From the NCBI GenBank assembly GCA_021775935.1, contig JAJFGY010000047.1, forward strand, positions 1 through 33,676: DNA of 33,676 nucleotides. Reading direction: 5' to 3'. The DNA comes from Alphaproteobacteria bacterium. GTDB lineage: Bacteria > Pseudomonadota > Alphaproteobacteria > Parvibaculales > Parvibaculaceae. The translations under genes were made by a program, and so were the position numbers. The notes under the pieces are model-generated. The model ran no database searches and had not been told where the DNA came from. It was given only the letters and a program-made list of their open reading frames with translations. Below, piece by piece: positions 1 to 11,646 of the stretch (positions are counted from its first letter, which is position 1; each line of letters opens with the position of its first letter).

Positions 1-1596
1 AATGCGGCAACCGGCGACATAGATGTTGGTGCGACAACCGCTGGGACCTCGATCATGATCTCCGGTCAGGATATTGATCTCGGTGGCAAAGTGACAGGTG
101 GCGCGCTTGCGAGCCTGACTGCAACCTCTGGAAACATTTCATCCCCCGGATCGCTTGAAATAGAGGCAGGCTCTATTTCGCTTTTAGGCCGGGTTGTGGC
201 GGCGGGCGATGTTCTTTTGACTGCGCTGACCGGCGGGCTTTCTTCAACAGGTAGTTTGACCGCTACGGTTGGAAATATTATCGCGACTGCACCTACTGGA
301 CCGATTTCAGTAGATGACCTGGTCGCAGGCAACAATATTCGGCTCGTTGGTGCCTCAGTTAGCGTCGCGGGCACCGCTACTGCTCAGGGCGGTGCATTTG
401 TTCAGGCCTTAGCCGGCAATGTCGCTGTCAGCGGAAGTGTTAATGCAGCAGGCGGCGCCCTCGTTTTGAACGCGGCAAACGGTACGGCTCTTCTCAACAG
501 GATCGGAGCGCTCGATGATGTCACGCTGACTGTGGCCGATCTTGATCTGTCTGGTTCCATCACTGCTGGTGACCAGTTTATCCTGGAAACAGCGCGGACC
601 GGTCAGACGATTGTGCTGGGTGGGGACGGCTCGACGGCTGGGGTCACTTTGCGCCGGGCCGCGGGTCTCATTATCGACGAGGCAGAACTTACAAAAATTT
701 CCGCAGGTCGTTTTGATGTAGATGGCGGCGCCAACGATGTTCTGCTGCTTGATGCGCGCTTTAGCGGGGCAAGTTTGGACACGTTGATGATTGGCACGGA
801 TCAATCATCTCGCATCATTGCGGCGGGTACGGTGACGGGGCTTTCGTCACTGCAGCTGGGATACCAAACGAGCGAAATTGACCGACGGCCCGACCTCATT
901 CTGGTCTCCGGGCAATTGGGACTTGATACCGCTGCGGGACGTTTGGGTACCGTGCGCCTTGAATCTTCTGACGACATCGTCATTGGGACCGAAAAATTCC
1001 TCGATGTTTTTGAAACAGGAACCCTCTCTCTGTTCGGACTTGCTTCCCTGCCAAACAGTCTTGTCGGAGGCACCACCGATCACGTCTTTATTGCGACCGA
1101 TCAACTGCAATTTGTTGCGCCTGGCTCAATCGTTCAACTGAACACGGGCAGGGGTGTGGATGGCGCCGGTATTGTTTTCGGTGTGCCTGGTGCAGGCGAC
1201 GGTGTCTTGTTTCCGTCTGGAACTGGGCCAACGGAAGTCCTTCTCTTCGGCGATGTTATTCGTGCGGATGGATCCCGTGTCTCAGGATTTAGTGCAAGTC
1301 TTGAGGATAATATTTTGTTTGGCGGGAACACGATGACCAGTGCGGTGGGTCTTGCCCAGAACAATCAGTATTATATGAACTTCTGCCTCATTGGTGATCC
1401 GGTGAGTTGCTCTGCGGACTCTCTGCGGGAAATTGAACGCAATACCCGCTTTATTAATGGAGACCCTTCTGGTCTTGGTGGTGTGATTCCGGTTGTTTTT
1501 GAAACTGGGGAAGATGACGAACGCAACCAGGAAGAAGATTTGGGCGGTGTCGCCGCCAGCGGCAATGAAGCCCTTTGGGATGCGGGGAGCCAATGA
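1..1596 (+). CDS. Filamentous haemagglutinin-like / beta-helix repeat exoprotein, C-terminal part (5' truncated by window)
   Basis: Reading frame is open from base 1 (NAATGDIDVGATTAGTS...). It shows degenerate short repeats rich in G/S/T/A/V/N/D (e.g. 'GSLTATVGNIIATAPTGPISVDDLVAGNNIRL'), typical of FHA-type beta-helices. No C-terminal autotransporter barrel is visible; it ends in an acidic tail. Confidence 0.75.
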   Translation, partial: NAATGDIDVGATTAGTSIMISGQDIDLGGKVTGGALASLTATSGNISSPGSLEIEAGSISLLGRVVAAGDVLLTALTGGLSSTGSLTATVGNIIATAPTGPISVDDLVAGNNIRLVGASVSVAGTATAQGGAFVQALAGNVAVSGSVNAAGGALVLNAANGTALLNRIGALDDVTLTVADLDLSGSITAGDQFILETARTGQTIVLGGDGSTAGVTLRRAAGLIIDEAELTKISAGRFDVDGGANDVLLLDARFSGASLDTLMIGTDQSSRIIAAGTVTGLSSLQLGYQTSEIDRRPDLILVSGQLGLDTAAGRLGTVRLESSDDIVIGTEKFLDVFETGTLSLFGLASLPNSLVGGTTDHVFIATDQLQFVAPGSIVQLNTGRGVDGAGIVFGVPGAGDGVLFPSGTGPTEVLLFGDVIRADGSRVSGFSASLEDNILFGGNTMTSAVGLAQNNQYYMNFCLIGDPVSCSADSLREIERNTRFINGDPSGLGGVIPVVFETGEDDERNQEEDLGGVAASGNEALWDAGSQ

Positions 1597-4571
1597 TCGC
1601 TCGACTTCCAGCCTTATTGTCAGCCTTTGTGCTCTTCGCTGCTGCTTGTGTTCCGGAGATGGGATCGTCTCTTCCAGATGCACTTGATCTGGGCGCAAGT
1701 TCAGAGGGCGACGCTTGCAGGGCAGGCAAACGCCTTGATACGGAGGCGGTTGGTGCCCTTGCGCGCTATGATGTGTTTTGCGGAACCTGGCGGCGACCAG
1801 CGGCAACATTAGATGTCTATCCAGGCGACAAAGTTGCGGGCAGTGTGCTGCTTGAGGGATGCATGTCGTCAGCAAACACGACCCAGCTGGGCGAGGGGGT
1901 GTTGAGCTGCCCCGGGAAGATTTCAGGTTCCTTGCTGCAGGATCTCGCCATTAGCGCGACGGGCGCGAACAATGTGGTTCATGCACGCGGAATACCCGGC
2001 GCGCTGCCTGCTATGAGACGGGGCGCTGCAGCTCTTGCAGGACTTGAGGCGCCCATCGAACTAAGCTCGGATGAGATGGCAGGCTTGCCTGGTGTTGCAG
2101 CCCTGCAGGATCAGGAAGTTTTGCGGCGACGGGGGCACCGTCGGAACGTCTCTTTCCGGTTTTCTCTTGCGGCAGAAGACTATGCGAAGGCGGTAGCAAT
2201 CCAGGATGGTCTTTTCGGGGGCGATCCGGTTCGTCGCGCCGACATTGCGCTGGATCTTGGCCTAAACCTGTCCAGCCAGGGTCGGTTTGCAGAAGCTGAG
2301 CAGCTGCTTGAGGACACGGCTTTGTCTGCTGGTGTGCAGACCACTTCCTGGCTGCGGGACAAATTGATCAACTATCAAGCGGTCCATCAGCTGAACACTG
2401 GGAATTACCGAGAGGCTCTTGCGCTCGCCGAGCAACCGTTTGCACCCGAAACATTTGGCGCGTTCGCATTTGTGTCGGGTGATGTGGCAGAGAGCGTCAT
2501 CACGCCCCGTGCTGCTGAGTTTGTAAATCATCGCAGTGGCGATGGGGTTCCTCCGATTTACTCCGATGCAGAACTGCGGCCTGGTGTTCGAGCGATCATT
2601 CTTGAGGCCCATCGTGCTTACCTGCTGGCTTCTGCTCTTCTTTTGTCGGGGCGTGAGGGTGCTGGAGATGCACTGGACGACGCGGCTTCTTTGGTTGAAC
2701 GTGCCCCGGAGGGGTCTGCTGGATGGCTGGATGCATTGATTGAAGAGCGCCGCGCGGCCAACGATCTAGAGCAGGGAAATATTGGTGCAGCTCGCTCCCG
2801 GCTCTCTACCCTTGTTTCTAGGTGGATCCGGGATCAGCCGCAATCTCTGCTCACTGCGCGGTTGCTTGCAAGCCTCGGAAAAACCCAAATCGCAGATGGC
2901 GACGTCTCCGCCGCGCTGGCATCGTATGATCGTTCTTTTGACCTCTATTCCGGCGTAGAGGGATCGTTTGGGATATCGCCTGATGTCGCCGGTGACTATT
3001 TGGGCGTATTGCTGCGGGCTCAAAAGGCAGGTCTTGGGGATGCGGCGCGTCTTACGCGGCGCTTTGTGGACGCATTTGAAGGGATGGTTGAGCCGCGCGC
3101 GGCTGCCGCTATGGCCATGGCTGCTGCTCGTGTTGCCGGCGAGGGCACTGCTGATGAAATTCGTGCCTTGCAGGATGCTGAACGCGCTCTTCAGGAGGCA
3201 CGTCTCGCGCTACAGCAAGGTGCCAGTACGGATGATCCTGAGGAGCTTGCGCGGTTGACGCTTGCCGCCGATACCGCGGAAACCTTAGCTCTGGATGCGG
3301 AGGTGCTCGCACGACATGCACAACCCCAATATATGCAACTGATCAATGGGGGTGCGGAAACTGCCGACCTCATTTCTACACTCGCGGCGGACGAAGCTTT
3401 CGTGGCTTTTGCGCCGACACAAGCCGGTGGGTTTGGGTACGCAGTCTTCGCTGGCAAGATTATGCCCTTTGGGACAGAGCTTGGTCGGGATGAAGCGCGT
3501 CGATTGGTGCGCCGCGTGCGCTCAACCTTGCGGGCGCGCGCTGGTGGCACACCGCCCTTCGCAGCTGAGCAGGCCCACACGCTGTTTGAGGGCGTCTTCC
3601 AGCCTGTCTATGCTGATCTTGTTGAGGCGGGCGTGAAGACGCTGGTCTTTGCGCCACGCGGCGTGATTGGGTCTCTGCCGCCGTCTCTTCTTCTGTCGAC
3701 ATTTGAGGACGAGCATAAAGTTCTTGCGCGATCGCGTTCCTATTCGACCCTGCCCTGGCTTGCGAATGATTTTGCGTTCATTAACACGCCAAGTGCGGCA
3801 AGCTTTGTGGCGGCGCGGTTGGCTGATGCACCGGAAGCGAATTCTGGCATGACGGTATTTGGACCGCCAGTGCCCCCTAACAATTCTGATGCATGGGTAA
3901 AAGATTTTACGGCCCGCATGACTGCTGAGGGCAGGCCGGAACGGTGTGGGCAGGTCTTTGCAGGCGAACCCAATTTGCAGAAACCCTTGACGGCGCTTCG
4001 GTCTTCGGTTGGTTCTTCATTTGGTCGCCGGGATGTCACCGGTCGCGCATTCACTGATCTGGATATAGCGCAGGATGCCTCACTGGTTGATCAGCAAGTG
4101 TTGGTCTTTGTTACGCATGGCTTTTTCGGGGATGGGTTTTGTATCTCTGAACCGTCGCTCCTCACCTCGCTCGATACGCAAGGTGGAGATGGCATGTTGA
4201 GCGCAACTGAGATCCTTGATCTGAAGCTGGACGCAACGCTGGTCGTCCTTGCCGCCTGTGATACCGCGCGTGCAGCGGAAGGCGCCGAGGGTGTTGCTGC
4301 AGTCTTTGATGGTGCGCAACTGGATGGGCTTGTGCGTAGTTTTGTCTATGCAGGTGCGCGCTCGGTTCTCGCAACACACTGGGTTGCAGACGACGCAGCA
4401 GCGGATGCGGTTGTCCGAAAATTCTTCGCCGACGCAGCGCGGGAGCCGATGCATGAGGCATTGCGCGGCGCACAGCGAAGCCTTATTGCTCAGGACAAAT
4501 TTGCGCACCCCTACTTCTGGGCACCCTACGTCATGATCGGCGACGCAGACCGCGTACTTGGGCGCAGCTAG
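1593..4571 (+). CDS. TPR and CHAT-domain protein, putative lipoprotein (caspase-like peptidase family)
   Basis: Start at ATG 1593 overlaps the upstream stop (ATGA) and gives MIARLPALLSAFVLFAAACVPEMG, a lipoprotein-type signal with an AAC lipobox. TPR-like helices lie in the middle. C-terminal CHAT signatures are VFVTHGFFGDGFC (His codon 4116-4118) and LVVLAACDTARAAEG (Cys codon 4257-4259), followed by GARSVLATHW and HPYFWAPYVMIGD. Confidence 0.88.
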   Translation: MIARLPALLSAFVLFAAACVPEMGSSLPDALDLGASSEGDACRAGKRLDTEAVGALARYDVFCGTWRRPAATLDVYPGDKVAGSVLLEGCMSSANTTQLGEGVLSCPGKISGSLLQDLAISATGANNVVHARGIPGALPAMRRGAAALAGLEAPIELSSDEMAGLPGVAALQDQEVLRRRGHRRNVSFRFSLAAEDYAKAVAIQDGLFGGDPVRRADIALDLGLNLSSQGRFAEAEQLLEDTALSAGVQTTSWLRDKLINYQAVHQLNTGNYREALALAEQPFAPETFGAFAFVSGDVAESVITPRAAEFVNHRSGDGVPPIYSDAELRPGVRAIILEAHRAYLLASALLLSGREGAGDALDDAASLVERAPEGSAGWLDALIEERRAANDLEQGNIGAARSRLSTLVSRWIRDQPQSLLTARLLASLGKTQIADGDVSAALASYDRSFDLYSGVEGSFGISPDVAGDYLGVLLRAQKAGLGDAARLTRRFVDAFEGMVEPRAAAAMAMAAARVAGEGTADEIRALQDAERALQEARLALQQGASTDDPEELARLTLAADTAETLALDAEVLARHAQPQYMQLINGGAETADLISTLAADEAFVAFAPTQAGGFGYAVFAGKIMPFGTELGRDEARRLVRRVRSTLRARAGGTPPFAAEQAHTLFEGVFQPVYADLVEAGVKTLVFAPRGVIGSLPPSLLLSTFEDEHKVLARSRSYSTLPWLANDFAFINTPSAASFVAARLADAPEANSGMTVFGPPVPPNNSDAWVKDFTARMTAEGRPERCGQVFAGEPNLQKPLTALRSSVGSSFGRRDVTGRAFTDLDIAQDASLVDQQVLVFVTHGFFGDGFCISEPSLLTSLDTQGGDGMLSATEILDLKLDATLVVLAACDTARAAEGAEGVAAVFDGAQLDGLVRSFVYAGARSVLATHWVADDAAADAVVRKFFADAAREPMHEALRGAQRSLIAQDKFAHPYFWAPYVMIGDADRVLGRS

Positions 4572-4580
4572 GGCGAAAAC

Positions 4581-5477
4581 TTATCGCGGGCAAAGCGCTT
4601 CGGAATCACCACCACCGATGAGAGCAAGAGCGGCTTCACGATCAAGGCCTGCGTCTTTGGCAGCACTGATTTGCTGTGCTGCCTCATAAGACCAAACATA
4701 CGGGTCTTCTGCGGCAATGCAGAATGCTGCCAGCATGGTTGCCGTGTCTTCGCCCATCCAAGCGGGAATAGCTGGTGGTGTGGCTGAAGGCACATCTGCA
4801 ACCGCGTCAAAGAAGGTCTGACGTGTGCGGCCATAGGCATCTTTCACCACGATCGTGTATCTGCCTGGCACAATGGTCCTGGCGGGGAGCGTCGTTGAAA
4901 TGTCTGACAATGTCTGAGTTGCGAAAATCCGATCTGTGGGGTCAAGGACAAGCAATTCGTAAGGAGCTTGGCCCCCTGACCACCCAACCCAAAGAGGGCG
5001 GAAGCCTGCTTTGATTTGTGCAGACTCTGTTTCCAGATCCAGCAGGCCAAATTCAAACTCTCCCCCTGAACGGGCCAATCCCTGGCCGACCAGTCGGTCG
5101 CCAAGAGGCAATAGCCTTCCTTCGATCAGTTCGCTGATGGATTGGCTGCCTGTGGATGCAGGTCCCACCGTATAGCTTTTTGGTCCGCGAATTTCGTTGG
5201 GCCCTGAACTCCCGGCAATGCCGAGTACGACCCGGTCACTTGCGCTCTTCAGGCTGACAACATCGCCTTCACAGAGAGGCGAGAAGACGGCAAGTGAGGC
5301 TTCAGATCCAGCTCGATTGATGCGAATGCTGTCTGACCCGCCATCGATTTGTTTCACAAAGGCGACTGTGGCTGAGCCGCAGGCAGGGATCGCTGCTTGC
5401 GCACTTGTTGCGCCCATCCATGCTGCCGCGCCCAGCGCAATTGCAATGGCTGTATTAGCTGTTTTTTGTTTCAGCAT
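4581..5477 (-). CDS. Secreted protein with signal peptide, possibly FecR-like N-terminal domain
   Basis: MLKQKTANTAIAIALGAAAWMGATSAQAA is a Sec signal with an AxA site. 'VAFVKQIDGGSDSIRINRAG...LCEGDVVSLKSASDRVVLGI' resembles the FecR/prepilin-like sandwich. The family call is tentative. Confidence 0.6.
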   Translation of the reverse strand: MLKQKTANTAIAIALGAAAWMGATSAQAAIPACGSATVAFVKQIDGGSDSIRINRAGSEASLAVFSPLCEGDVVSLKSASDRVVLGIAGSSGPNEIRGPKSYTVGPASTGSQSISELIEGRLLPLGDRLVGQGLARSGGEFEFGLLDLETESAQIKAGFRPLWVGWSGGQAPYELLVLDPTDRIFATQTLSDISTTLPARTIVPGRYTIVVKDAYGRTRQTFFDAVADVPSATPPAIPAWMGEDTATMLAAFCIAAEDPYVWSYEAAQQISAAKDAGLDREAALALIGGGDSEALCPR

Positions 5478-6924
5478 TTCTCAAGCTTTCCATTAATTCT
5501 TCGAAGTCTTCTCTGGCTTCGTTAAGCGCTGCTGCATATGCCGGCGCAGCCAAACCAAGCCAAAGACCGTCGTCCAGGAGAAAATAGCTCACACCAGCCC
5601 CAACCCAGAATACCCCCACACCGATCAATATCTTGATGATAACCGGATTGGTCAACAAATTGATAGGTGTGCGGGCAATCCTCATTGCCCAGTGCAGGTC
5701 TTCCATTGGTTTTAGGAAGTCTCGGGCTTTCCGGCAGTACCAGAATGCCAAAACTATCAGCATGACGAATATGGTTAATAGCACGGCCTCAAAATACCAC
5801 GCCATCCGCCGCACTTCGCCGCCCGCTTCAACGCCACGGATGATGTTCGCAATGACCAGGCTACCTCCCATAGCGCCATAAGCGGAGATATGTCGGTCTC
5901 TTGCAGCTTGGGCTGCTGACCCAATAATAATGACGCCATCATTGGCAGAAAGACCTGCGACCATCCCAGGCTCTACAAAAGCTGCTGGGATTACGAACAT
6001 GTCTGCCGCCGGGAGTTGGGGCTCAGGGTCATCTGCCGTACCGGCGTTCAGGCTGTAATTGATCAGGCTTTGCTGACCTTTGAATGTCATCGGTGCCCGG
6101 CCAGGGATAGAGAGGTCGAAGGCAACGTCATCCCAGGTTCCAGCACAATAGGCGCGGGGACCCTCCATTGTCTTTTGCACGGCCTGAATTGCGTCACGGG
6201 GACTGTCGGCTTTCCGCGCAATGGCCGCATAGAAAGCTGTGGTGGCAGAGGCCTCGATGCCGGTGGGCGTGTCGATGCAGAGGAAGTGAGAGAAGTACCG
6301 CGCGCCCATCACCTCATCTCCGGTGAGTTGGGCACTTGCCCAAACAATATTGTCCTCTGGCGCGGAGAGAATGATGCTGTCTCTGTCAGAGGCGCGCGCT
6401 GCGGCAAGAGAACCAGGTCGGCCATCCCCCTCTGTCACTTCTCGCTGTAGAATGAGCAAAGGGGCTTCCGGGTCGCGGCCCCACTTCTGAAGCAGCTCAT
6501 CGATCCGTTGTTCGGCGGCTTCATCTGGGGTGCGCCAAAACAGGTCAATGTCGACAATCACGACTTTCGGGCGCGGCATGCCTGGCAGCCCATAGGATGC
6601 TTCAATCAAGTCTGCCAGAACGGGGCGCGGTGCATAAGCCAGCGCAGGGCCGTCGGCGGTAGCACCCTGCCAGACTGAGTCATCTAAATTGAGAAAGAGA
6701 ATGGGGTGAGATCCGGGCAGCGTTTTGTTGACCCGCATCTCAAACGCTATCTGCAGGGCCTCGCGGTCAGCCTCGCCGACAAAACTTCCCCAAACGACAT
6801 CATTGCGTAGGCCCACCCAGACCAGCAGAGCCAACGCCAAAGAGATCAAGAAATTGACATCGAAGGGGCCTTTTTCAGGCTTGTCCGCTTTTTCACTGCC
6901 GTTGGTTGTCACTTCGTTCCCCAT
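5455..6924 (-). CDS. CHASE2-domain-like membrane protein without recognisable output domain
   Basis: N-terminal TM segment (FLISLALALLVWVGL), then a long extracytoplasmic region with CHASE2-like features (PKVVIVDIDLFWRTPDEAAEQRIDELLQKW, GVIIIGSAAQAARDRHISAYGAMGG), then about 3 C-terminal TM segments and a short tail. The ORF extends to a TTG at 6939; ATG at 6924 is preferred. Overlaps the downstream gene by 23 bp. Confidence 0.72.
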   Translation of the reverse strand: MGNEVTTNGSEKADKPEKGPFDVNFLISLALALLVWVGLRNDVVWGSFVGEADREALQIAFEMRVNKTLPGSHPILFLNLDDSVWQGATADGPALAYAPRPVLADLIEASYGLPGMPRPKVVIVDIDLFWRTPDEAAEQRIDELLQKWGRDPEAPLLILQREVTEGDGRPGSLAAARASDRDSIILSAPEDNIVWASAQLTGDEVMGARYFSHFLCIDTPTGIEASATTAFYAAIARKADSPRDAIQAVQKTMEGPRAYCAGTWDDVAFDLSIPGRAPMTFKGQQSLINYSLNAGTADDPEPQLPAADMFVIPAAFVEPGMVAGLSANDGVIIIGSAAQAARDRHISAYGAMGGSLVIANIIRGVEAGGEVRRMAWYFEAVLLTIFVMLIVLAFWYCRKARDFLKPMEDLHWAMRIARTPINLLTNPVIIKILIGVGVFWVGAGVSYFLLDDGLWLGLAAPAYAAALNEAREDFEELMESLRNAETKNS

Positions 6925-6979
6925 ATCTCGTCTTGGCAAGATAGTGCGGGGGTAAGGGCCCGCGCAACGGGAGAAGTGA

Positions 6980-9082: not shown

Positions 9083-9115
9083 CCCTTTTATGACAGTTCC
9101 TTGACGCTCAGACCT

Positions 9116-9178
9116 CCCAGTTTGTAGCCTTTGACGATTCGCGAGCTGCGCTGGTGGGCGCAAGGCGAACAAACTGGG
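9116..9178 (+). promoter_or_regulatory. Structured leader: nested inverted repeats upstream of alpha/beta hydrolase gene
   Basis: CCCAGTTTGT (9116-9125) pairs perfectly with ACAAACTGGG (9169-9178). Nested inside are GCCT (9127-9130)/AGGC (9163-9166) and TGCGC (9147-9151)/GCGCA (9158-9162). The 3' arm abuts the G-run (9176-9180) that precedes the ATG at 9189. Confidence 0.45.
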
Positions 9179-9188
9179 GGTTTCCTGA

Positions 9189-9980
9189 ATGGCAATGATG
9201 TCTGAGTCTGCTGACCTCGACCGTCCGCAATTGCGCTGGCTCTATTTGGAGTTTGGGCGAACCATGGCTGAGGTGGCGACATTGCCGCTCTTCCAACAGA
9301 TTCTGAAACGAGCGCCCGAGGGGGATGGTCATCCCGTGATGGTCCTCCCCGGCTTTATGGCAGGTGATAACAGTACGGGTGTGCTTCGACGCTTTCTTGC
9401 GTCACGCGGATATGAAGCCTATCCGTGGGAGCTTGGTCGTAACCTTGGTCCGGCCACAGCTGGGTATGAAGGTGAGCGGATCGCTGAACGGATCGAAGAG
9501 ATTTCTGACAATCATGATGGCCAGAAAATTAGCCTGGTTGGATGGAGCCTTGGTGGCGTGCTCGCGCGTGAAGTTGCTAAACGTGCGCCAGATGCCGTTC
9601 GTCAAGTGATCACGCTGGGCAGCCCTTTTTCGGGGAAGCCTGAAACCAGTCGCGCCTGGCCGCTCTTTAAGGTGATGGCCAAGGGTGAGACGCAGACAGA
9701 GAGGTTTCGAGAACTGGTTGAAACCATCGCGGTTCCTCCGAGTATCCCGACCACATCCATCTACACAAAGACCGATGGTATCGTGCACTGGAAGAATTCA
9801 ATCGAAGCGCAGGAAGACCACACGGACAATATTGAGGTTCGCACGTCTCATTGTGGACTTGGGTTTAACGCTCCAACCATGTATGCGGTAGCAGACCGTT
9901 TGGCGCAGGCAGAAGACGATTGGCGCCCCTTCCATCGGGAGGGTTGGCGCGCGATGGTCTACCCATCAAGTGGGCACTGA
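9189..9980 (+). CDS. Alpha/beta hydrolase (lipase/esterase-like)
   Basis: Nucleophile elbow GWSLGG in 'ISLVGWSLGGVLAREVAKRAPDAVRQVITLGSPFSG', with 'HPVMVLPGFMAGDNST' upstream and a C-terminal 'SHCGLGFN' as the catalytic His candidate. Confidence 0.9.
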   Translation: MAMMSESADLDRPQLRWLYLEFGRTMAEVATLPLFQQILKRAPEGDGHPVMVLPGFMAGDNSTGVLRRFLASRGYEAYPWELGRNLGPATAGYEGERIAERIEEISDNHDGQKISLVGWSLGGVLAREVAKRAPDAVRQVITLGSPFSGKPETSRAWPLFKVMAKGETQTERFRELVETIAVPPSIPTTSIYTKTDGIVHWKNSIEAQEDHTDNIEVRTSHCGLGFNAPTMYAVADRLAQAEDDWRPFHREGWRAMVYPSSGH

Positions 9981-10006
9981 GACTTTCATTTGACCAGAAG
10001 ACACAA

Positions 10007-10046
10007 AAAAGCGGGCTCCTGAAATGATCTTTCGGAAGCCCGCTTT
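10007..10046. terminator. Bidirectional intrinsic terminator between convergent genes
   Basis: AAAAGCGGGCTcC ... GgAAGCCCGCTTTT, with A/T runs on both sides, between the genes ending at 9980 (+) and 10066 (-). Confidence 0.85.
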
Positions 10047-10065
10047 TCTGTTTTGAGACGTTAAA

Positions 10066-11646
10066 CTATCCCGCCTTTTGCTCGAGCGGTGGCTCGTCTT
10101 TTGGCGTATCCAGTTTCGCTGCTGGCTTTCGCTTTGCTGCCGTTTTCTTTTTGGCAGGTGCTCTCTTTTTCTTCGGAGCCGCTTTGCTTTTTGCTTTCGC
10201 CTTTTTTGCAGGTGCTGATTTTTGGTTGGAGCCGAGGATGGCGAGTTCCAGCTCATCAAAGCTTTCTTGCAAACATTCAGCATAGAATTCTGGGTCGGGC
10301 ATCATATCCCGGTCCGCTGTAATGGTGATGGTCACCTCTTTGTCGTAGCTCATGACGACGTGGCCGAGACCAAGTCCATCAAACAGGCAGAGTAGGCCAT
10401 AATATTTCACCATCTGCGCGCCGTTCGAATAGATCGGGATGGGCGGGCCGGGAACATTGGTAACCACAGTATTGAAGAAAGGTTTTGTTGAATTGGCGAG
10501 GCCAAACTGAGTGTAGAGCCTTGCTGCGATCCCGGTGAAAAGTGCAGGTGCTGTTTTGCTGAGCTCCGACATTTGTCGTGCACCCAATGCACTCGTCAGC
10601 GCTTTTTGTTCCTGCGTATAAGCAGAAATCGACAAGATGCGCTCAGTGGGATCTGCAATGTCACTGCCGAGCTGAACCATCATCGCGGAAACCTGGTTGC
10701 CGAGAGATCCGCTTTCGTCATTGGAGCGCACAGAGACGGGGGCCATGGCGACCAGGGTCGTTTCCGGCAATTCGGCTTTCGACTCCAGGTATTTCCGCAT
10801 AGCGCCCCCAACGATGGTCAACATCACGTCGTTGACCTTGGCGCCAGGAACACCGGTCTTGACCTCTTTGATCCGGGCCAGATCGAAGGCAACACCTTCG
10901 ATGACGCGGTGGGCGGAGATCTTATTGTTGAAGCGTGTGCGCGGCACAGACATCGCTTGGCCGAGAGAGAATTCTTTGGTCAGCAACCCTTTGATCGTGC
11001 GCGCGAGGCCCGGAAGGGTTTTGCCGGCCATCTCAACCCATTTGAACGGCTGCTTAACATTGCCAAGGTACCCCCGTACTGCCATTTCAACGGCAGATGG
11101 TTTCTTCTCTGGCTTCCAATTGTCATCCAGGGCGGGGAGCGTGTCTCCAGGCTTGATTGTATGCAGGGCATTCATAATGTCGACGCCGGACATGCCATCA
11201 ATTGCCGAGTGATGGATCTTGGAGATGAGAGCATAGGAGCCCTTGGGCACGCCCTCCACATTGTCCAGGCCTTCAATGATTGTGAACTCCCACAGTGGCT
11301 TTGTGAGATCGAGAGGCCGCGCCATGATCCGTGCTGATTGGATGCAGAGTTGCCGCCAGTCCCCCGGCTTTGGCAGGGCGACGTGACGCACATGGTATTC
11401 AAGATTGAAATCCTCAACCTCGACCCAATAAGGGTGGTCGATGCCGAAAGGCACGTTTGCCAGGCCCCGTCGGAAGGTGTTGGCGAGGGGCAGGCGTTCC
11501 TCAATAAAACTCAGAATGTCTTTATATCGGACAAACCCACCCGGTGCGGTGGATGGATCGTAGATGGCGATGCTACCTATGTGCATCGGCGAATTCTCTT
11601 GCTCCATATACAAGAAAGCGGCGTCGAGACCTGTCAATTGTTCCAT
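10066..11646 (-). CDS. Wax ester synthase/diacylglycerol acyltransferase (WS/DGAT family) with basic Lys/Ala-rich C-terminal tail
   Basis: N-terminus MEQLTGLDAAFLYMEQENSPMHIGSIAIYDP, the condensation-type HHxxxDG motif 'KIHHSAIDGMSG', and 'VTNVPGPPIPIYSNGAQM'. Tail is KSAPAKKAKAKSKAAPKKKRAPAKKKTAAKRKPAAKL. Confidence 0.93.
   Translation of the reverse strand: MEQLTGLDAAFLYMEQENSPMHIGSIAIYDPSTAPGGFVRYKDILSFIEERLPLANTFRRGLANVPFGIDHPYWVEVEDFNLEYHVRHVALPKPGDWRQLCIQSARIMARPLDLTKPLWEFTIIEGLDNVEGVPKGSYALISKIHHSAIDGMSGVDIMNALHTIKPGDTLPALDDNWKPEKKPSAVEMAVRGYLGNVKQPFKWVEMAGKTLPGLARTIKGLLTKEFSLGQAMSVPRTRFNNKISAHRVIEGVAFDLARIKEVKTGVPGAKVNDVMLTIVGGAMRKYLESKAELPETTLVAMAPVSVRSNDESGSLGNQVSAMMVQLGSDIADPTERILSISAYTQEQKALTSALGARQMSELSKTAPALFTGIAARLYTQFGLANSTKPFFNTVVTNVPGPPIPIYSNGAQMVKYYGLLCLFDGLGLGHVVMSYDKEVTITITADRDMMPDPEFYAECLQESFDELELAILGSNQKSAPAKKAKAKSKAAPKKKRAPAKKKTAAKRKPAAKLDTPKDEPPLEQKAG

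Follow-up and report, generated by a model that had tools for sequence, protein, structure and literature searches.

Do the four genes at one end of this contig form a single system at the cell surface and, if so, on what does its CHAT protein act? The window, that is the whole stretch of DNA analysed (33,676 nucleotides from an alphaproteobacterium of the Parvibaculaceae, GCA_021775935.1), is the entire contig C239 (JAJFGY010000047.1), the start of which falls inside the first of the four genes. According to the original prediction, made from the sequence alone, an FHA-like exoprotein, a TPR-CHAT lipoprotein, a CHASE2 sensor and a secreted FecR-like protein would all act outside the cytoplasm as one module, in which the CHAT peptidase processes or releases the exoprotein and the other pair senses or controls it. 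An ORF check confirmed the four genes (Table 1) together with the compact layout described for them: the CHAT start (ATG at 1593) overlaps the TpsA stop as ATGA, CHAT and the gene for the small secreted protein (SEC) are convergent with 9 bp between them, and the CHASE2 and SEC genes overlap by 23 bp. A location outside the cytoplasm or in the membrane is predicted for all four products, as had been proposed.

Table 1. Features of the locus (window positions)
Feature	Position	Strand	Evidence or remark
TpsA (FHA-like two-partner-secretion exoprotein), C-terminal part	1..1596	+	cut by contig edge
FCLIGDPVSC, CX8C cysteine pair near TpsA C-terminus	1381..1410	+	candidate disulfide anchor loop
LGGVAASGNEALW, conserved TpsA C-terminal tail motif, acidic run before it	1540..1578	+	
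TPR-CHAT lipoprotein, 992 aa, predicted extracytoplasmic cysteine peptidase	1593..4571	+	Pfam CHAT 6e-36, TPR; AF2; Foldseek
Lipobox cysteine, residue 19, LFAAAC (lipobox-like)	1647..1649	+	sequence
N-terminal beta domain, residues 30-133, four invariant cysteines C42, C63, C90, C106	1680..1991	+	53-sequence alignment, AF2 model
TPR solenoid, residues 159-545	2067..3227	+	Pfam, AF2 model
CHAT domain	3570..4544	+	Pfam
Predicted catalytic His842	4116..4118	+	invariant in alignments A1, A2, A4
Predicted catalytic Cys889	4257..4259	+	invariant in alignments A1, A2, A4
SEC, small secreted protein, 298 aa, four conserved cysteines	4581..5477	-	no Pfam/NCBIfam family
CHASE2 protein, four predicted TM segments, no output domain	5455..6924	-	ATG start; TTG alternative start at 6939

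The TpsA piece in the window itself matches no FHA or TPS family in Pfam, and it is identified as TpsA because of the upstream part found on a second contig of the same genome, C14, and because of relatives in which the gene is uninterrupted. At the end of C14, outside the window, a TpsB gene (9100-10812; ShlB 1e-19, POTRA_2 7e-12) adjoins a TPS domain (PF05860, 11000-11725, 1.1e-21) belonging to a TpsA frame that runs off the contig, and these are the only ShlB and TPS domains detected in the genome. The FHA secretion domain and TpsB that the original prediction expected upstream are, thus, both present at the C14 end, as they are directly upstream in relatives. No exact overlap between C14 and C239 was found, so that here the link to TpsB is based on synteny. 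Where relatives have uninterrupted contigs, TpsA is full-length with an N-terminal TPS domain, and the gene order is TpsB-TpsA-CHAT, followed by the convergent SEC and CHASE2 genes. Both hallmarks of a type Vb system, a TPS secretion domain and an adjacent TpsB with POTRA and ShlB barrel domains, are therefore found.

The CHAT, SEC and CHASE2 genes occur in the same convergent arrangement at 12 loci from two families, referred to here as the window clade (the window, L019-L025, L098, L103, L105 and L137, the last from a Candidatus Phaeomarinobacter MAG), and TpsB-TpsA precede CHAT in all eight loci that reach far enough upstream (L019, L020, L022, L024, L025, L098, L103 and L105). The distribution of SEC follows the same pattern, as it was found in exactly eight of the 40 genomes of the order, namely those with a full-length CHAT and at the same locus, and is absent from the other 32. 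Because the arrangement is the same in relatives from two families it is not due to chance, and the proposal that the genes are merely neighbours without a functional link, refuted by the conserved linkage and the matched presence and absence, retains a negligible probability. A conserved module in which TpsB-TpsA-CHAT faces CHASE2-SEC is well supported, and the proposal that the four genes constitute one module is upheld. TpsA of the window clade ranges from about 1200 to 2600 aa; in L020 (7461-10773) the frame is broken into two overlapping frames, reflecting a frameshift or an assembly error. The TpsB proteins of the clade have a lipobox-like start (LLFMCLLTVGC, SLMVAGC), unusual for an Omp85-type transporter, which was seen in L018 (C14, 9100-9220) and also in L019, L020, L022, L024, L025, L103 and L105.

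The original prediction had also called for the co-occurrence of CHAT, CHASE2 and FHA families to be examined, and linkage was found both in the order and across the class. Among 289 genomes sampled evenly from the class, CHAT was present in 61, CHASE2 in 149 and ShlB in 89. The neighbourhoods of the 75 full-length CHATs were annotated with local HMMs, and 24 of the 75 are TPS-linked, 15 of these with CHASE2 nearby. SEC or another small secreted protein was found with 14 of the 15 TPS-linked CHATs that have CHASE2 and with none of the nine that do not, and the association of CHASE2 with a small secreted protein holds in 7:0 independent pairs on the CHAT tree. At those nine of the 24 loci the stretch examined has the whole TpsB-TpsA-CHAT core but no CHASE2. 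FHA-CHAT pairs lacking the CHASE2/secreted pair, which were held to count against the module, are therefore not found in the window clade, where every locus has the pair, and do occur in part elsewhere. A scan of public genomes, biased towards TPS-linked CHATs in a way that the class survey is not, yielded 80 loci, of which 49 have TPS genes and 25 have CHASE2 in the stretch examined; Caulobacteraceae, Sphingomonadaceae/Erythrobacteraceae and Rhodospirillales account for most of them, Burkholderiaceae and Methylomonas for a few. One further locus of the same class, L031 (180-7782), brings together a CHASE2-cyclase, a CHAT without the six cysteines described below, a DUF928 secreted protein and TpsB.

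The CHAT protein (Pfam CHAT 6e-36, TPR_12 1e-7) carries the His-Cys dyad of clan CD peptidases within its CHAT domain. In the alignment of 53 TPS-linked CHATs (A4), which are mostly 22-28 % identical to that of the window, H842 and C889 are invariant together with six cysteines (C42, C63, C90, C106, C785 and C850). Of the 24 TPS-linked CHATs of the class survey, 22 have five or all of the six, versus two of the 51 others (Fisher 1.4e-14), and the TPS label changes three times on a tree built from 101 CHATs, versus 34 in shuffles, with two large TPS-linked groups. The TPS-linked CHATs are, hence, a recognisable subfamily with six invariant cysteines and an intact dyad. Lipobox-like N-termini were also found in the CHATs of L019-L025, L053, L079 and L103, and the signal peptides or lipoboxes and the paired cysteines, which would form disulfides, fit an extracytoplasmic location. 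That CHAT might instead be a structural chaperone or plug for secretion, its protease activity being incidental, is very unlikely: TPR domains are common peptide-binding scaffolds and the gene lies within the secretion operon, but both the His and the Cys are invariant in 53/53 TPS-linked CHATs at identities to the window protein mostly below 30 %.

An AlphaFold model of the CHAT protein (pLDDT 85) comprises a beta domain, a TPR solenoid and a CHAT domain, and a Foldseek search with it retrieved DdvA, separases and the Craspase TPR-CHAT (7y8t, 7y84, 9hma), all with low global TM-scores; the best match by E-value was the membrane anti-sigma factor DdvA (8rot, 8rw5; global TM-score 0.24-0.29). 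A role as a defence system or Craspase was considered and rejected, as PADLOC returned nothing and the neighbours are TPS genes. The match to DdvA is one of two observations that would suit a different reading, in which CHAT has a periplasmic substrate other than TpsA, be it SEC, CHASE2 or a target in the cell envelope; its cleavage would serve signalling or self-damage, and TpsA would sense contact or surfaces. The other is that CHAT also lies beside a CHASE2-cyclase without TPS at 8/51 survey loci, so that the CHAT-CHASE2 link can exist outside secretion loci. We consider this reading distinctly unlikely, given that the six-cysteine subfamily is tied to TPS, that the CHAT gene lies downstream of TpsA and often overlaps it, and that the tail common to the TpsA proteins (see below) would then need another reader. 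A CHAT gene next to a CHASE2-cyclase gene, with no TPS genes in the stretch, was seen in L029, L030, L057, L066, L070, L086 and L094.

Within TpsA, which otherwise varies, it is the C-terminal tail that is conserved. TpsA proteins of the window clade end in N-x-C-[LIV]-I-G-x-x-x-S-C, an acidic run and L-G-G-V-A-x-x-G-N-E-x-L-W, with the CX8C pair kept in every C-terminus read. Related tails are found in the CHAT-linked TpsA of other lineages (SSWGNEALWQ, GTGSEEIWRQ, SNTGKDTLWR and SGGDASLY), and the common signature is [hydrophobic]-N-x-C...C and/or a terminal G-[ND]-x-x-[LIV]-[WYF]. A loose form, G[NDSK][EDPTAS]x[LIV][WYFLI], is found within the final 60 residues in 29 of the 52 tail clusters versus 4.8 % of internal windows of the same proteins, and the cysteine pair in 27/52 clusters versus 1/925 internal windows; these patterns are partly post hoc, defined in part on the sequences scored. 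Even the loosest motif is absent from about a third of the tail clusters and the cysteine pair as written from about half. When G[ND]xx[LIV][WYF] was written from earlier loci and scored on later ones, it was found in 13 of 38 held-out clusters versus a background of 2.1 % (p 6e-13). The strict pattern GN[ET][ASG]LW hardly generalises (1/38 held-out clusters), while the looser form does. In a small control set of complete TpsA without CHAT (n=10) the motif was found in none (one with the loosest form) and the cysteine pair in one. The tail gives the idea that CHAT acts on the exoprotein a candidate physical target.

A possible further step, which we put forward tentatively and at somewhat less than an even chance, is that a dedicated six-cysteine TPR-CHAT enzyme reads the terminal G-[ND]-x-x-[LIV]-[WYF] tail, whether or not the cysteine pair accompanies it, as a C-terminal sorting or processing signal. 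The two would then make up a signal/enzyme pair not described before for type Vb exoproteins, linked to CHASE2 signalling and occurring across alphaproteobacteria and in some gamma- and betaproteobacteria. Such a short, position-specific C-terminal motif beside a dedicated clan CD enzyme resembles sorting-signal/sortase pairs, and there are parallels in PorU, the clan CD sortase of type IX secretion, and in the GPI transamidase subunit. CHAT could accordingly be a maturation or sorting enzyme that removes or transfers the tail of every TpsA, anchoring or finishing it, instead of a release switch. The core that is complete where CHASE2 is absent means that CHAT may work without a switch; however, no acceptor or anchor molecule is apparent, and the CHASE2/SEC pair is always present in the window clade, which suggests regulation. 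We regard obligatory maturation as unlikely overall.

As to that pair, the description of the secreted protein as FecR-like was not borne out. Neither FecR (PF04773) nor any other family was detected in SEC with Pfam or NCBIfam, the AF2 model is weak (pLDDT 57), and Foldseek gave generic Ig/CopC-like beta-sandwich matches alone. A FecR-domain protein does adjoin a second TpsB locus, which has no CHAT, in two genomes of the same genus (G002 and G004; L127, 11214-14899, and L131, 11241-14143), and that of L127 also includes a CHASE2-histidine kinase, another pairing of TPS with CHASE2. The CHASE2 sensor stands in part: the CHASE2 domain (Pfam 7e-9) is followed by TM segments, but an output domain (kinase, cyclase or GGDEF), which most relatives have, was not found in the window protein, and its role as a sensor is thus only inferred. 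The CHASE2 proteins of other lineages do have a cyclase and are likewise found with a small secreted protein; the latter is about 230 aa, and all 42 members found are in CHAT loci beside the cyclase gene. Comparison of SEC with these proteins (hhalign E 0.008, 75 collinear columns, probability 5 %) shows weak similarity and is no more than suggestive of homology. The CHASE2 profile of the window clade has no match outside the clade at E 1e-3, and descent from the TPS-linked CHASE2-cyclases is, therefore, not claimed. Genes for cNMP-binding proteins lie behind CHASE2-cyclase genes in two loci (L026, 2130-5575, and L060, 1774-2661), one of these proteins being a fusion with a mechanosensitive channel, which points to cyclic nucleotides as the output.

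The reading that we prefer, and to which we give a little better than an even chance, is of a type Vb locus with a dedicated extracytoplasmic CHAT protease that acts on a periplasmic TpsA tail and is gated by a membrane/periplasmic CHASE2/SEC pair. TpsB would export the long exoprotein TpsA, the C-terminal tail of which, with its cysteine pair and terminal G-N-E-x-L-W, would stay in the periplasm. There the TPR solenoid of the CHAT lipoprotein may bind the tail and the His842/Cys889 dyad may cut it, determining whether the exoprotein stays attached or is released, with the CHASE2 membrane protein and its secreted partner gating CHAT from the periplasmic side. The CHASE2 proteins of other lineages would, in addition, drive an intracellular cyclase. 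The location of the tail, its binding and cutting, the direction of proteolysis and the gating are what we infer from the genes and motifs described above. The original prediction was, hence, right in outline, in that there is a module with TpsB upstream, with two corrections: FecR is not supported, and the CHASE2 protein has no output domain.

In the open-access literature we found no paper linking CHAT with CHASE2 or with two-partner secretion, and none that gives an extracytoplasmic CHAT protein a role in exporting surface proteins, a silence that is weak evidence for the novelty of the module. If the proposed mechanism is true, the TpsA tail becomes a definite substrate for extracytoplasmic CHAT proteins, with a motif that can be tested, and it would be a new way of controlling what is on the cell surface. 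The six-cysteine signature and the tail motif provide a means to find the system in genomes.

Among known systems, the Craspase TPR-CHAT of type III-E CRISPR and separase likewise have a CHAT/separase-type protease behind a TPR or alpha solenoid, but they are intracellular, whereas the CHAT protein here has a signal or lipobox and six extra cysteines and no PADLOC match. Unlike DdvA, it has no anti-sigma part. CHASE2-cyclase operons have the CHASE2 extracytoplasmic domain in common with the module, relatives of which carry CHASE2-cyclases with cNMP-binding proteins nearby, though the window-clade CHASE2 protein itself lacks a cyclase. FHA with SphB1 in Bordetella is likewise a TPS exoprotein with a maturation or release protease (PMC5422565), but SphB1 is a subtilisin autotransporter encoded elsewhere. 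In HMW1A/HMW1B and HxuA a C-terminal cysteine pair is described as a disulfide anchor in TpsB, the loop of HMW1 or HxuA being able to lock the end of TpsA in TpsB with the tail left in the periplasm (PMC5422565); no CHAT or CHASE2 is described there, and the terminal G-N-x-x-L-W is an addition here. The nearest parallel in operation is CdrA/CdrB with LapG/LapD of Pseudomonas, where LapG, controlled by c-di-GMP, cleaves CdrA in its periplasmic tail (PMC5422565). Both have a TPS exoprotein, and the module here would also share a periplasmic tail as protease target and a membrane regulator of that protease. However, the only protease here is CHAT, of clan CD, with none of LapG type, and the putative regulator is CHASE2 with a secreted protein (a CHASE2-cyclase in relatives) and not a c-di-GMP receptor: the CHASE2 protein has no cytoplasmic domain and so nothing resembling the GGDEF/EAL receptor of LapD. 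All of the genes here are also in one locus. The module would, by this analogy, work like LapG/LapD-CdrA using unrelated parts, not as a member of that family, and, if so, would be a second, unrelated solution to the problem of holding or letting go of a giant surface protein.
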